Assembly (NCBI GenBank): GCA_030037645.1
Contig: JASHQI010000186.1
Location: 1-64,000, forward strand
Source: Xanthobacteraceae bacterium
Lineage (GTDB): Bacteria; Pseudomonadota; Alphaproteobacteria; Rhizobiales; Xanthobacteraceae
DNA: 64,000 nucleotides
Reading direction: 5' to 3'
A program made the position numbers and the translations under genes. Below, piece after piece: positions 49,545 through 57,531 of the stretch. The notes below the pieces were generated by a model. That model made no database searches. It had not been told where the DNA came from and saw only the letters and a program-made list of their open reading frames with translations. Numbering within the stretch: the first letter of the stretch is position 1; every line of letters begins with the position of its first letter.

Positions 49545-52052
49545 TCAACGGCGACGACACGCTACCTCGGCGAGTTCGCCGCGCAGCCGCTCTAGTAACT
49601 CGTCCCAGTCGCCGATTGACCTTTGCCGGAATATACGCATCGTCGGATACCATGGGCTGTCGGTGCGATCGAGCAGCCAGCGAAAATCGGGAGAGTACGG
49701 CAACAGCAACGCGACAGCCTTGCCCATCGCGCCAGCCAGATGCGCAACCGAAGTGTCGACTGCGACGACCAGGTCGAGCACTGCGACAACCGCGGCGGTA
49801 TCGGCAAAATCGGTAAATTCGCTGCCGAGCTGGCTCACCCCGTGATCGCGCAAGACGGCCGCCTGCGCGTCGCTCACTTCTTTCTGCACACTGATGAAAT
49901 CGAGGCCCGGAACGGATAGCACGCTTGTCAAACGATCAAACGGCAGCGAGCGATTGCGGTCGTTCATGTGCACCCGGGTACCTGCCCAGCACAATCCAAT
50001 GCGCGGCCGCCCATTCTGCGGCAGCCGCGGCCACCAGCTATCGGCATACTCCTGGAACGGGCGCAGATAAGGAACGTTCGCCGGCACCGTGGCAAGTTCC
50101 GTTCCGAACGCCAGCGGCAGGCTCAGCATTGGACAACGCAGGTCAAAATCCGGCAACAAATCGCCATCGGTGAAAACTCCGGAAATGTCCGGCACCGACC
50201 ACATCAGCGTTTTGAGCGGTGGCTGCACCACGAGCAGGACTTTTGCCCCGAGCGCGGCAACGAGTGGCGCATAGCGCACGAACTGAATCGTGTCGCCAAA
50301 GCCCTGTTCGGCATGAAGCAGAATCGTCTTCCCCTTTAGGTCCTTTTCTCCATCCCAGATCGGTTGACGATAGTCGCCGAGCTGCAACGCCAGGTCCTTT
50401 CTCTTCCAGCGATACTCGTACTGCTTCCAACCCTCATGGAAATCGCCTAAGCACAAGCGCGCGATCGCGGAGTTGAAATTCGCATCGGCATGGTCCGGCT
50501 CGAGCGCCAGCACCTCGGCGTAGCTGGCGAGCGCCTCCTCCACGCGCCGTTGCTTGAGAAAAGCATTGCCGCGATTGACATGCGCGGCAATGTCGTGCGG
50601 CGCGACGGCAAGCGCTTTTTCGTAACAGGCGAACGCTTCGTCGAATCGATTCAATTCGGCAAGCGCCGCGCCCCGGTCAGAGAGCACCGATGCGTAGTCC
50701 GGCTTGATCGCGAGCGCCGTGTCGTAATTCTCCAACGCCTCAGCGTAGCGCCTATCACGGATAAAAGCTTTTCCACGATTGATCCAAGCGATGACATTGT
50801 CGGGCTCTCTGGCAACGATGTTATCAAAGATCGTGCGAGCCTCGCCGATCCGATCAAGGTCCAGCAGAATTACGCCACGATTGATCTGGATGTCGGTCCG
50901 CTCCGGCGCCGCCGCCAGCGCCGCGTCGTAGCTTGCCAGAGCCTCCTCAGCACGCCCGAGCTTGCCGAGGATAACGCCGCGGACAGTGAGCGTGTCGGGC
51001 CGCACAGGGTCCTTCGTCAGGATCTTGTCGCATGCCCCAAGCGCTTCCTCGAGGCGATCCAGCATCATCAGCAAACCAACTCTACCGTGTTGCGATCTAA
51101 GATCATTCGGATCGATCGCGAGCGCGCGGTCGTAGAATGGCAGCGCCTCGCCAGGCCGCTCCAGCGTCATCAACGCGAGAATGAGATTGTTGAGTGCATC
51201 GAGGCGTTGCGGCTCGAACGCAAGCACCCGCTCATAGCTCGCGCGCGCCTCCTCCGCTCTGTCGAGCCCTAACAAGGCGTTGCCGCGATTGTAAAGCGCA
51301 TCGGTGTAATCGGGTCTTTCGGCAAGCGCACGTTCGCAACTTTGCAACGCTTCCTGGTACTGCCGAAGCTCCACAAGCACGACGCTGCGATTGTTGAGTA
51401 CTTCGGTGTGGTCCGGTTCGATCGCGAGAGCGGCGTCATAGGCGGAAAGCGCCTCTTCCGGTCGCTTGAGCGCGCAGAGCGCGACGCCGCGCAGGTTGAG
51501 CGCCGCAACGTGGCGCGGTCGCAGTGTCAACGCCTTGGCGTAGTCGGAAAGAGCCTCTTCGTGCCGATCGACCGCACAGAGCGTATTGCCCCGATTACAA
51601 AGTGCATCGATATGATTTGGCGCAAGGATGAGTGCGCGGTCATAGCTCGCCAGAGCTTCCGTGTATCTTCCCAGTCCCTTCAGCGCGTTGCCGCGATTGT
51701 AATGCGTGCTGGCATCGCTTCCGTGTATCGTCAATACTTTGTCGAAATTTTCCAGCGCCTCCTGGTGACGCTTGAGTGCATCAAGAATGACGCCGTAATT
51801 CGTCAGCGCGCTCACCGATCCCGGCTCTGCCTTGAGCGCAGCTGCTACCAGCCGAAGAGCCTCCACCGATCGACCTTGTTGGTGTTTGAGCACTCCGCCG
51901 AGGTGCAGCGCATCGAAGTTGTGCGGATCGCTCGCGAGGACGCAATCGTAGAGCCGCTCCGCTTCCTTGAGTTGCCCGTGCTGGTGCAGCGCCAGCGCCT
52001 GGTCGATGAGGCGCGAGGTTTGCGCCCGCTTCGCCGTTGCGTCCTTCACCAT
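49545..52052 (-). CDS. TPR-repeat glycosyltransferase (FlmG-like architecture), 835 aa
   Basis: ~14 TPRs; KTILLHAEQGFGDTIQFVRYAPLV...DTSVAHLAGAMGKAVALLLPYSPDFRWLLDRTDSPWYPTMRIFRQ. Confidence 0.85.
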   Translation of the reverse strand: MVKDATAKRAQTSRLIDQALALHQHGQLKEAERLYDCVLASDPHNFDALHLGGVLKHQQGRSVEALRLVAAALKAEPGSVSALTNYGVILDALKRHQEALENFDKVLTIHGSDASTHYNRGNALKGLGRYTEALASYDRALILAPNHIDALCNRGNTLCAVDRHEEALSDYAKALTLRPRHVAALNLRGVALCALKRPEEALSAYDAALAIEPDHTEVLNNRSVVLVELRQYQEALQSCERALAERPDYTDALYNRGNALLGLDRAEEARASYERVLAFEPQRLDALNNLILALMTLERPGEALPFYDRALAIDPNDLRSQHGRVGLLMMLDRLEEALGACDKILTKDPVRPDTLTVRGVILGKLGRAEEALASYDAALAAAPERTDIQINRGVILLDLDRIGEARTIFDNIVAREPDNVIAWINRGKAFIRDRRYAEALENYDTALAIKPDYASVLSDRGAALAELNRFDEAFACYEKALAVAPHDIAAHVNRGNAFLKQRRVEEALASYAEVLALEPDHADANFNSAIARLCLGDFHEGWKQYEYRWKRKDLALQLGDYRQPIWDGEKDLKGKTILLHAEQGFGDTIQFVRYAPLVAALGAKVLLVVQPPLKTLMWSVPDISGVFTDGDLLPDFDLRCPMLSLPLAFGTELATVPANVPYLRPFQEYADSWWPRLPQNGRPRIGLCWAGTRVHMNDRNRSLPFDRLTSVLSVPGLDFISVQKEVSDAQAAVLRDHGVSQLGSEFTDFADTAAVVAVLDLVVAVDTSVAHLAGAMGKAVALLLPYSPDFRWLLDRTDSPWYPTMRIFRQRSIGDWDELLERLRGELAEVACRRR

Positions 52053-53091: not shown

Positions 53092-53943
53092 CTACCCTAC
53101 CCCACGCGCGAGAAACGGCTCGGCGGAGGCGCCTGCAGGCGCGAACTGTGAAGACAGGTCGCCGCAAAACGTCATCGGGCCGACGTGATTGAGCTTGCTG
53201 CCGAGATCCGCCCAGATTTCGCCGCCGATATCGGTCCAGCGCTTGCAGAACGCAAAATCTTCGCTGAGATAGGTGCCGTCCTCAGCAATCATGCATTCGA
53301 ATAAAGCGAAGCGGTTATCGCTTGCGGCCGCGGCGTCGATTGAGTGATCGCGCTTATACTGAAGCTGCGGATATCGGACGCACATGCGCGCCAATGCTTG
53401 ACGCCGGATCATGAGAAAGCCGGTTCCAGCATAGCGGACTTTGACGAAGCCGTGTTGTTCGATCACCGCATTCGGATCATCGACTTCGAAGACATATCTC
53501 AATGCTGCTGCCTGTGGATTGAGACGGACAGTCTCAATTGTTTGCTGGACCTTATTCCAATCAAGCCGCTTGATCGGGTAGACGGCGGCACACATCTCGG
53601 CACCGCACTCGACCAGCCGCAACACTTGGTCCGGCTCAAAGCCGACGTCGGCGTCGATGAACAGCAGATGGGTCGCGCTTGCATCGTCGAGAAATTGCGA
53701 TACCAGGCTCGCTCGTGCCCGCGTTATAAGGGCATCGCTGTCCTTGAACAGCACCTTGAGGCTTACGCCCTTATAGGTTCGCAGACGCTTTTCCAGCTTG
53801 AGCAGCGATGCCGCGTAGATGACGGAAACCTGCCCGCCGAAGCAGGGCGTCGCAACGACGAGATTGACCCTCGTGGGTCCGGCGACCGCAGGCTCGCCCG
53901 CAGTGGCCGTGAGAGTCGTCGGTGTCGGAGAAGAACCGTGCAT
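53092..53943 (-). CDS. Glycosyltransferase, GT2-like
   Basis: NLVVATPCFGGQVSVIYAASLLKLEKRLRTYKGVSLKVLFKDSDALITRARASLVSQFLDDASATHLLFIDADVGFEPDQVLRL. Confidence 0.78.
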   Translation of the reverse strand: MHGSSPTPTTLTATAGEPAVAGPTRVNLVVATPCFGGQVSVIYAASLLKLEKRLRTYKGVSLKVLFKDSDALITRARASLVSQFLDDASATHLLFIDADVGFEPDQVLRLVECGAEMCAAVYPIKRLDWNKVQQTIETVRLNPQAAALRYVFEVDDPNAVIEQHGFVKVRYAGTGFLMIRRQALARMCVRYPQLQYKRDHSIDAAAASDNRFALFECMIAEDGTYLSEDFAFCKRWTDIGGEIWADLGSKLNHVGPMTFCGDLSSQFAPAGASAEPFLARGVG

Positions 53944-54284: not shown

Positions 54285-55442
54285 ATGTCTGACATCACAC
54301 TGACCGCGGGCATTCGGCAGAACCTGCTGTCGCTTCAGCAAACCTCCGCCGACCTGACGACCACCCAGGAAGCGCTCGCCACCGGCAAATCGGTCAATTC
54401 GGCCGCCGACAACCCGAGCGCCTATTTCACCTCGCAGAATTTGACCAACACCGCGAACTCGCTGAGCGCCTTGCTCGACCAGATCGGTCAAGGCCAGCAG
54501 ACGATCAATGCGGCCACCAACGGCCTCACGGGCATCACCAGCCTGCTCCAGCAGGCGCTTTCTACGGTGCAGCAGGCGCAGCAGGCCAGCCAAAACGCGG
54601 CGACATACACCGGAACGGTCTCCGTCGGCAGCAGCACCGTCGGCACCGCGGCGACCGGCACTCTCAACATCCTGGTCGGCACGACCACTTACGGGGTCGC
54701 CGTCACGGCGGGCGAGACGTCGACGGGCATCGAAGCCGCGATCAATGCGGCGACCGGCCTCGGCGGCACCAACGGCGCTCTGACCGCAAGCGACAGCAAT
54801 GGTGACATCGTGCTGACCGCCAACTCGAACAGCACGAACTTCACGATTCTGGCCAATGCGACGTCGGAGGCCATCGGTTTGACGTCCGGCTCCACCAGCA
54901 CCGCCAATAATGTGGTGTGGCAAAACAGCACCACGCGCGGAACGCTGCAAACGAACTACAACGGGCTGTTGACGCAAATCAACGAGCTCGCCAACGACGC
55001 GTCGTACAACGGCGTCAACCTGCTCACCGGCAACGATCTACAGATCGACTTTAATGCCTCCGGATCGAGCTCGTTGACCATCGACGGCGTAACCGACAAT
55101 TACGCGGGCCTTGGCCTGGCGTCGATTAGCGGCAGCGCTAGCGGATCGTTCCAGGACGACAGCGCGCTCAGCACGGCTGTCACGAACATCAACAGCGCGA
55201 TCACGCAGGTGCAAACCCAGACCGAGACGTTCGGCACCAATTCAGGCGTCATCGGAACCCGTCAGACGTTTGAGACCAACATGATCAACACGCTGCAGAC
55301 GGGAGCCAGTAACCTGGTGGTGGCGGACCAGAACGAGGAAAGCGCCGACCTGTTGACCGAGCAAACCCAGCAGCAACTGGAAATCTCCGCACTGTCCATC
55401 GCCAACCAGGCGAACCAGTCGGTGCTCAAGTTGTTCAGCTAA
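54285..55442 (+). CDS. fliC: Flagellin
   Basis: N-term ITLTAGIRQNLLSLQQTSADLTTTQEALATGKSVNSAADNPSAYFTSQNL and C-term ESADLLTEQTQQQLEISALSIANQANQSVLKLFS. Confidence 0.96.
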   Translation: MSDITLTAGIRQNLLSLQQTSADLTTTQEALATGKSVNSAADNPSAYFTSQNLTNTANSLSALLDQIGQGQQTINAATNGLTGITSLLQQALSTVQQAQQASQNAATYTGTVSVGSSTVGTAATGTLNILVGTTTYGVAVTAGETSTGIEAAINAATGLGGTNGALTASDSNGDIVLTANSNSTNFTILANATSEAIGLTSGSTSTANNVVWQNSTTRGTLQTNYNGLLTQINELANDASYNGVNLLTGNDLQIDFNASGSSSLTIDGVTDNYAGLGLASISGSASGSFQDDSALSTAVTNINSAITQVQTQTETFGTNSGVIGTRQTFETNMINTLQTGASNLVVADQNEESADLLTEQTQQQLEISALSIANQANQSVLKLFS

Positions 55443-55470
55443 CGTCTATCTGGTACAGGCCAAAGACGAG

Positions 55471-55501
55471 GGCGGCGGGGCGAAAGCTCCGCCGCTTTTT
55501 T
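55471..55501 (+). terminator. Rho-independent terminator after fliC
   Basis: gcggcgg...ccgccgc stem followed by TTTTTT. Confidence 0.85.
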
Positions 55502-55606
55502 CATCTCGTCGCTCGCCGCCGTGTCCCATTGCCTATTGAGCGTGAGGCACGCGGTTAGCCCGACTTTAACCGGCATCCGCAACCATCGCCTGGCTGGGGC
55601 AGGGTT

Positions 55607-56353
55607 TTGAATGTGGCTCTCAAGCTCGAACTCAAGCCAAACGAACGCGTCATCCTCGGCGACTGCGTCGTGACCAACGGCGCTCAGCGCACGCGTCTCT
55701 CGATCGAAGGGGCGGCTCCAATTCTGCGCGAGAAAGACATCATCACGCCGGACCAAGCCGATTCACTCGCGAAGCGCATCTATCTCGCGGTGCAGCTTAT
55801 GTACACGTCAAAGCGTCCGCAGGAGCATCGTGCTTCGTATTTTCGGCTGGCACGTGAAATGCTGAAGAAGGCGCCCGACGCCCGGCCTTACGTCGAAGGT
55901 ATCAATAATCGAATCTTAACAGGCGACCTGTACAAAGCCTTAAAGGAAACGCGCAAGCTGATTGCCTACGAAGAGGGGGTGCTCAACATGCAATATGCCA
56001 GCAAGGCCTACGCAAAAATCGCCAAGGAAACGGCTTCTCCGCGCGAACTGGAAGCGGGCCTGCTGCTAAAGGCCGCCGCAAAACTGCAGGCAGTGCATGA
56101 CTCCTGGCAGGACAGGCCGAGCGGCCTCGACGACGCCCTGATGTATAACCGCAGGCTTTGGCTGGTATTTATCGACGCCGTGTCCAGGAGCGACAGCAAG
56201 TTGCCGGTCACGATCCGCGACAATGTCATCAAGCTCGGCGCTTTCGTCATGGGCGAGACGTTCTCACTGATGACCAAGCCAAAACCGAAGCACTTAAAAA
56301 CGATCATCAAAATCAATCGCGGCATCGCCGCCGGCTTGCGCAGCAGAGCCTAA
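55607..56353 (+). CDS. FlbT-FlaF fusion protein (flagellin translation/biosynthesis regulators)
   Basis: Residues 1-127 FlbT-like (ALKLELKPNERVILGDCVVTNGAQRTRLSIEG...NNRILTGDLYKALKETRKLIAYEE), residues 128-248 FlaF-like (MQYASKAYAKIAKETASPRELEAGLLLKAAAKLQAVHDSW...NVIKLGAFVMGETFSLMTKPKPKHLKTIIKINRGIAAGL), no stop between. Confidence 0.85.
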   Translation: MNVALKLELKPNERVILGDCVVTNGAQRTRLSIEGAAPILREKDIITPDQADSLAKRIYLAVQLMYTSKRPQEHRASYFRLAREMLKKAPDARPYVEGINNRILTGDLYKALKETRKLIAYEEGVLNMQYASKAYAKIAKETASPRELEAGLLLKAAAKLQAVHDSWQDRPSGLDDALMYNRRLWLVFIDAVSRSDSKLPVTIRDNVIKLGAFVMGETFSLMTKPKPKHLKTIIKINRGIAAGLRSRA

Positions 56354-56394: not shown

Positions 56395-57531
56395 ATGAGT
56401 ACCGAACTCTCTCTTATTTCCGAATTAGAGAGCGCGATGAAAAGCGGCTCTCAGGACAAACGCGTCGAAACGTTGCGACGCATTACCGATCTTTTTGCTG
56501 CCGAGGCGGAACGCTTCAACGATCGCGAGATCGATGTGTTCGATGGAATTCTGGAGCATCTGATCAACAAGATCGAACATAGAGCACTCGCGGAGCTCAG
56601 TCGACGCCTTGGGCCGATCAAAAATGCACCGTGCAACGTCGTGCAACGCCTGGCAAGGGACGAGGATATCGCGGTCGCCGGACCGGTCCTCAAGCAATCC
56701 ACTCGTCTGAGCGACGCCGACCTGATCGAAATTGCCAACAGCCGACCTCAGGCGCACCTCTTGGCAATTTCGGGACGCGCCCAAATTGACACCTCCGTTA
56801 CCGACGTTCTTCTGCAGCGCGGTGATAACCACGTGTTTCATAAGCTTGCTGAGAACGAAAATGCCGACTTTTCCGACCATGGGTTTGCAACACTTGTGAA
56901 GCACTCCGAGAGCGACGAACAACTCGCCGAGAAGATCGGATTTCGGCGCGATGTTCCGTTGCCTATATTTCGCGAACTTTTACGGCGGGCCACCAAGGTG
57001 GTGCGTTTGCGCCTCTTGGGTTCAGCCAATCCCGACGCCTTCGATCGCATTCACAGCGCTCTCGAGGCCGTATCCGGCGACGAGCAACGCGAGGCGAGCT
57101 CTCAGCATGACCGCGATTTTGCCGAAGCGTACGAGAAGGCACTTGCGCTTCACAGCAATGGCGAAATCAGCGAATCGAAGATTCTCGAATATGCCAGAAT
57201 GGAGCGCTACGCCGACATGCTCGCTGCGCTTTCACTTCTCAGCGGGGCGCCGATGCAGTTGGTGGAAAATATTTTGCAAAGCAAGCACCGCGAGGCGTTT
57301 CTCATACCTTGCAAAGCCGCCGGCTTAAGGTGGTCGACGGTCTGCATCATGATGACCTATCGAGCCAATAACGTGATACTTTCAGGTGCGCAGCATGATT
57401 CCCTTCGGACCGACTATTTAAAGCTATCCGAGACGGCGGCGGCGAGGGTGCTTTCGATTTTGGCAGGGTCAGCCAGCGACTCCAAAGAGTCTCGCCGTCG
57501 CAATGAACTCTCGCCTGCAAACCCCGCTTAG
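56395..57531 (+). CDS. DUF2336-domain protein
   Basis: SELESAMKSGSQDKRVETLRRITDLFAAEAERFNDREIDVFDGILEHLINKIEHRALAELSRRL. Confidence 0.8.
   Translation: MSTELSLISELESAMKSGSQDKRVETLRRITDLFAAEAERFNDREIDVFDGILEHLINKIEHRALAELSRRLGPIKNAPCNVVQRLARDEDIAVAGPVLKQSTRLSDADLIEIANSRPQAHLLAISGRAQIDTSVTDVLLQRGDNHVFHKLAENENADFSDHGFATLVKHSESDEQLAEKIGFRRDVPLPIFRELLRRATKVVRLRLLGSANPDAFDRIHSALEAVSGDEQREASSQHDRDFAEAYEKALALHSNGEISESKILEYARMERYADMLAALSLLSGAPMQLVENILQSKHREAFLIPCKAAGLRWSTVCIMMTYRANNVILSGAQHDSLRTDYLKLSETAAARVLSILAGSASDSKESRRRNELSPANPA

Follow-up and report, generated by a model that had tools for sequence, protein, structure and literature searches.

An in-frame FlbT-FlaF fusion in one genus of Xanthobacteraceae and a promoter-like element within flbT

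The fused gene and its neighbourhood

The window (the whole 64-kb stretch of DNA that was analysed, from Xanthobacteraceae genome G000) carries a stop-free frame at 55607-56353 (+) that spans an FlbT and an FlaF domain. Opposing roles have been reported for these proteins in alphaproteobacterial flagellin control, FlbT being a post-transcriptional flagellin regulator in Caulobacter and Rhizobiales, and FlaF a flagellin secretion chaperone. An earlier note on this DNA had described the two as joined in one frame, and this is borne out: the frame has no stops, and both Pfam domains are full length and above the gathering score. FlbT (PF07378) matches residues 5-126 of the fused protein over profile positions 1-125 of 125 (135.9 bits, cut-off 27), and FlaF (PF07309) matches residues 132-244 over positions 2-113 of 113 (109.8 bits, cut-off 23.6); the NCBIfam equivalogs (FlbT, NF009432; FlaF, NF009435) concur on both halves. 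The open frame is single, as the note had it, but its length of 248 aa needs a small correction. Relatives open with M-x-L-K-x-E-L-K (MxLKxELK), which points to GTG 55613 and not TTG 55607 as the most likely start, giving a fused flbT-flaF gene at 55613..56353 (+) of 246 aa and 27.7 kDa with a TAA stop. The FlbT half occupies 55613..55987 (+) and the FlaF half 55988..56350 (+), the latter encoding 121 aa (13.5 kDa) if ATG 55988 serves as a start. A search of the whole genome found no second copy of flbT or flaF.

The FlbT half resembles other members of its family in its full-length domain, single copy and flagellin neighbour; it differs in its fusion to FlaF, in the loss of an extension found in relatives with overlapping genes and, in most of the genus, in the absence of a multi-flagellin set. 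The FlaF half also has the full-length domain of its family, forming here the C-terminal half of a fusion and probably also occurring alone. AlphaFold models the fusion with high local confidence (pLDDT 92), the relative placement of the halves being uncertain (pTM 0.62). FlbT consists of five short N-terminal strands plus helices, and FlaF is a helical bundle. No relative of either protein was found by sequence search among solved structures. FliS chaperones are the nearest flagellar fold matches of the FlaF half (several entries; Foldseek probability 0.84-0.98, TM to target mostly 0.6-0.7), which is consistent with the known function of FlaF but not significant (E about 1-2; designed helix bundles score alike). 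The CsrA-FliW/FliS flagellin checkpoint known from other bacteria, which also pairs an mRNA repressor with a protein of opposing effect, has been termed analogous (PMC4894983). The N-terminus of FlbT (GERVILGD...RLSIEG) looked CsrA-like, but no sequence or fold relation to CsrA was found: the hhalign probability is 1.9, and CsrA is not among the Foldseek matches listed for this region (model pLDDT only 77).

Directly upstream of the fusion lies a flagellin gene (54285..55442, +), the only one found in the genome. It is followed by a GC-rich hairpin and T run resembling an intrinsic terminator (55465..55510, +; z -5.3), which the consensus scan did not pick up. Between this hairpin and flbT, TTAACCGGCATCCGCAACC (55566..55584, +) was read directly from the sequence as a possible flbT promoter box; most of the fusion genomes, and also G018, a genome with a partly deleted flbT, have a similar sequence ahead of flbT. 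Directly downstream of the fusion, 56395-57531 (+) encodes a DUF2336 protein with a below-cut-off NCBIfam SpbR match; several relatives (L017) have in its place a gene for a CmcI-type methyltransferase, perhaps involved in flagellin modification. Near the flagellin gene, a TPR-rich protein of 835 aa (49545-52052, -) has a layout recalling the flagellin glycosyltransferase FlmG (TPR plus glycosyltransferase), with only TPR-like families among the Pfam matches listed. Upstream of flagellin is also a 283-aa protein with no Pfam match (53092-53943, -); similar proteins adjoin flagellin in L181 and L183.

Distribution of the fusion and decay of FlbT

The genus was sampled with 20 genomes, draft MAGs of uncultured soil bacteria that include G000. 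The fused frame is present in six (G000, G001, G004, G008, G013 and G014). The five besides the window's were assembled independently, and their proteins are 61-70% identical to it. Three of these five are MAGs that separate projects made public (L046, L047, L048), the closest named record being ‘Hyphomicrobiales bacterium isolate bog_931’ (L046). The G004 fusion has a damaged FlbT N-terminus, with 18 FlbT residues missing from the start of the alignment. Seven further genomes have FlaF without an intact FlbT, and the remaining seven, several of them incomplete, have no match to either family; a separate flbT is absent from all 20. No other stop-free fusion was found among the matches listed in the family search (200 genomes from 47 genera, 162 with a match) or the class search (386 genomes, 141 with a match), both of which covered best matches, so that very divergent fusions could escape. 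A further candidate in G274 (a 794-aa frame) was a spurious match inside another gene. Judged from these assemblies, the fusion is real and so far restricted to one genus; both families were already known.

FlbT has decayed to different degrees in the seven genomes that have FlaF without it. G018 has an in-frame gene still joined to FlaF in which FlbT residues roughly 25-97 are deleted, and this is an intermediate between the fusion and the FlaF-only state. The flbT remnant of G019 is out of frame, and only a scrap of flbT is left in G003, G015, G006, G009 and G010. Since searches recovered no rpoB from G001 or G013 and only fragments of it from some others, the tree was built on FlaF and flagellin (about 680 aligned bases; some nodes are weak) instead of being an rpoB species tree. 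G013 and G004, both with fusions, branch first, and FlaF-only genomes are nested among the fusions in three places (minimum 3 changes); a single FlaF-only clade was rejected (AU p=0.002). This topology implies that FlbT was lost or gutted at least three times in the genus, with FlaF kept. A flagellin match occurs in 14 genus genomes, 13 of which also have FlaF, and most genus genomes have one flagellin gene. Between fusions, dN/dS is 0.17-0.50 for the FlbT half and 0.14-0.43 for the FlaF half, which indicates that purifying selection acts on both. Functional loss of FlbT in the window's gene was ruled out, given its complete domain and a dN/dS well under 1.

An internal flaF start codon and a promoter-like element in flbT

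The flaF start at the joint is kept in all six fusions, as ATG or, in G013, GTG, with a Shine-Dalgarno (SD)-like sequence before it. In the window this sequence is GAGGGGGTG (55973..55981, +), ahead of the flaF ATG (55988), with a predicted pairing of -11.5 kcal/mol. Seven neighbouring genes together contain 104 in-frame ATG/GTG codons at internal positions, and the best of these reaches -7.3. Values for the other fusions (-5.5 to -8.8 kcal/mol) lie around or past the best tenth of that set (-5.6). The Glu-rich end of FlbT favours an SD-like sequence, and SD strength alone is no proof of an internal start.

Roughly 70 nt ahead of where flaF starts, on the same mRNA, flbT contains a promoter-like element, TAA-N7-TTAA-N11-TACAAA (55906..55936, +; TTAA at 55916-55919, TACAAA at 55931-55936), with the consensus TTAA-N11-TAYAAR at 55916-55936 and a conserved rare Leu codon, TTA. 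This codon, for FlbT Leu104, is TTA in 72 of 79 distinct contexts with flaF adjacent vs. 4 of 22 without (Fisher 7e-11, a p value inflated by relatedness), while TTA makes up only 24 of 846 other Leu codons in the flaF-adjacent flbT genes. Conservation at this synonymous site spans several Hyphomicrobiales families (flbT of L018-L150); four Afipia loci keep TTA although flaF is not adjacent. The TAYAAR hexamer coincides with Tyr-Lys codons in intact flbT, so that the informative cases are limited to the TTA codon and to genomes that have lost flbT. All six flbT-lost loci retain TTAA-N11-TA(C/G)AA(A/G) at exact spacing in DNA that has otherwise decayed: of the 30 bases that follow the element, only 7-20 agree with G000, and the leader that separates the element from the flaF start ranges from 22 to 52 nt. 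The pattern occurs once in the window and a stricter form once in the genome, and the element was rejected as a genome-wide regulon motif on the latter count.

Because a terminator-like hairpin ends the flagellin gene upstream, flaF in the flbT-lost genomes most likely depends on a promoter within the short interval that remains. The simplest reading of the element is that of a flaF promoter inside flbT that predates the fusion. A sigma-70 consensus scan found no promoter at this position. In CtrA-activated promoters the CtrA box mostly lies at -35 (PMC11264516); its consensus is TTAA-N7-TTAAC, of which TTAA is a half-site (PMC7200025), and CtrA binds the flbT promoter of Caulobacter (PMC6169604). 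At the element, the downstream TTAA of a TTAA-N7-TTAA box is conserved, and the upstream half is weak (mostly NTAA or NCAA, without codon constraint in the larger group). CtrA control is offered only as a suggestion.

The TTA block could instead be an RNA feature of overlapping genes that acts in the loading of ribosomes, in the processing of the mRNA or in pausing at a rare codon ahead of the flaF start. Its place on the flaF mRNA and the rarity of TTA here would fit, but pausing at a rare codon cannot account for the survival of the block where flbT is untranslated, and the variable leader to the start codon also speaks against such a role, which we regard as possible but rather unlikely.

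The earlier note had envisaged a product of fixed 1:1 stoichiometry. If only the fused chain were made, FlbT and FlaF would be locked together, and flagellin repression and export would be mechanically coupled. This is improbable, despite an in-frame fusion in six genomes with both halves constrained, since 6/6 fusions retain a start codon and a ribosome site at the joint, the promoter-like element outlives flbT, and G018 and the FlaF-only genomes have kept FlaF with the FlbT core gone. The AlphaFold model has a continuous helix (108-141) running unbroken through the joint, but model confidence there is low (pLDDT 67 for residues 131-140, with the pTM given above). An apparent internal flaF promoter older than the fusion undercuts the 1:1 reading further. 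Free FlaF is probably made beside the fused protein, because the start codon and ribosome site at the joint and the internal promoter-like element all persist.

Merging of overlapping frames and the roles of FlbT and FlaF

The flaF start of sister genera lies within the 3' end of flbT, some 55-60 bases inside and in the +1 frame, and the last flbT codons (typically about 20) are the opening DNA of flaF read out of frame. Overlapping flbT-flaF pairs of other Xanthobacteraceae (e.g., L067-L078, L084-L086) share gene order and start codon with the fusion, and most share its internal element; they differ in that their genes overlap in the +1 frame, by as much as about 60 bases, where the fusion has one frame. 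Pseudolabrys is a culturable relative with overlapping flbT/flaF. At the joint (CTC AAC ATG, 55982..55990, +), alignment with the sister genera shows one base missing just before the flaF ATG in the fusions, and seven in G014, where the frame is still kept. By this comparison, a net loss of one base just before the flaF ATG of an overlapping ancestral pair brought flbT into frame with flaF. The merged frames exchanged the out-of-frame tail for FlaF, and hence the FlbT tail is absent; the loss of a C-terminal tail claimed in the note holds for this short extension, while the FlbT domain itself reaches the Pfam end. FlbT of Rhodopseudomonas and some Bradyrhizobium is likewise tail-less and ends near the same point. 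A false fusion created by a sequencing or assembly indel, which the note had considered, has next to no probability, even with draft MAGs and a single base parting the two states, since the same open frame recurs in six independent assemblies at the protein identities given above, and a deletion of another length in G014 preserves it.

Reading from the flbT start would yield an FlbT-FlaF chain, probably one 27.7 kDa protein given the purifying selection on both halves, and flaF, which has a start codon and a ribosome site of its own and most likely an internal promoter in flbT, would probably yield free FlaF. In Caulobacter, FlaF binds and chaperones all flagellins and is required for export, and Caulobacter FlbT acts on flagellin transcripts with FljJ, a dedicated flagellin paralogue (PMC7591256); the FlbT level there is constant, and FlaF peaks with flagellin (PMC3930126). 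Because Caulobacter FlbT works via FljJ and most genus genomes show one flagellin, the FlbT role in the genus cannot be identical to that in Caulobacter. We infer that the FlbT half keeps a regulatory role on flagellin mRNA in the fusion species. The indispensable job would be that of FlaF, escorting flagellin to export as in Caulobacter, and single-flagellin life may have made FlbT dispensable.

Overall, we consider it likely that overlapping genes merged into one frame from which the fusion and probably free FlaF are made, and that FlaF is indispensable and FlbT dispensable, the latter having been lost, by gutting or deletion, on at least three occasions, with flaF and the internal element spared each time. 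The fusion gives the impression of ancestral tinkering within a lineage that came to manage without FlbT. It shows that FlbT and FlaF can live in one chain, and the repeated losses of FlbT suggest that, where one flagellin is the rule, FlaF is enough. The changed flagellin checkpoint proposed in the note is plausible, but the stronger evidence lies in these losses, which fall in genomes mostly with one flagellin gene. The conserved element suggests a site of flaF's own control. We lean, if only slightly, towards the broader proposal that a flaF promoter (possibly CtrA-type) is hidden in flbT across several Hyphomicrobiales families and times FlaF apart from FlbT, and that in one genus this prior independence let the genes fuse and FlbT then erode repeatedly, with the promoter block spared.

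Additional flaF copies were seen in two places. In some Bradyrhizobium (L053, L054), the flbT-flaF pair is followed about 0.6 kb downstream by another flaF gene. The G006 MAG has two flagellin-flaF loci (contigs C96 and C170; L182 and L181), both with TTAA-N11-TACAAA, which could reflect duplication or mixed strains.
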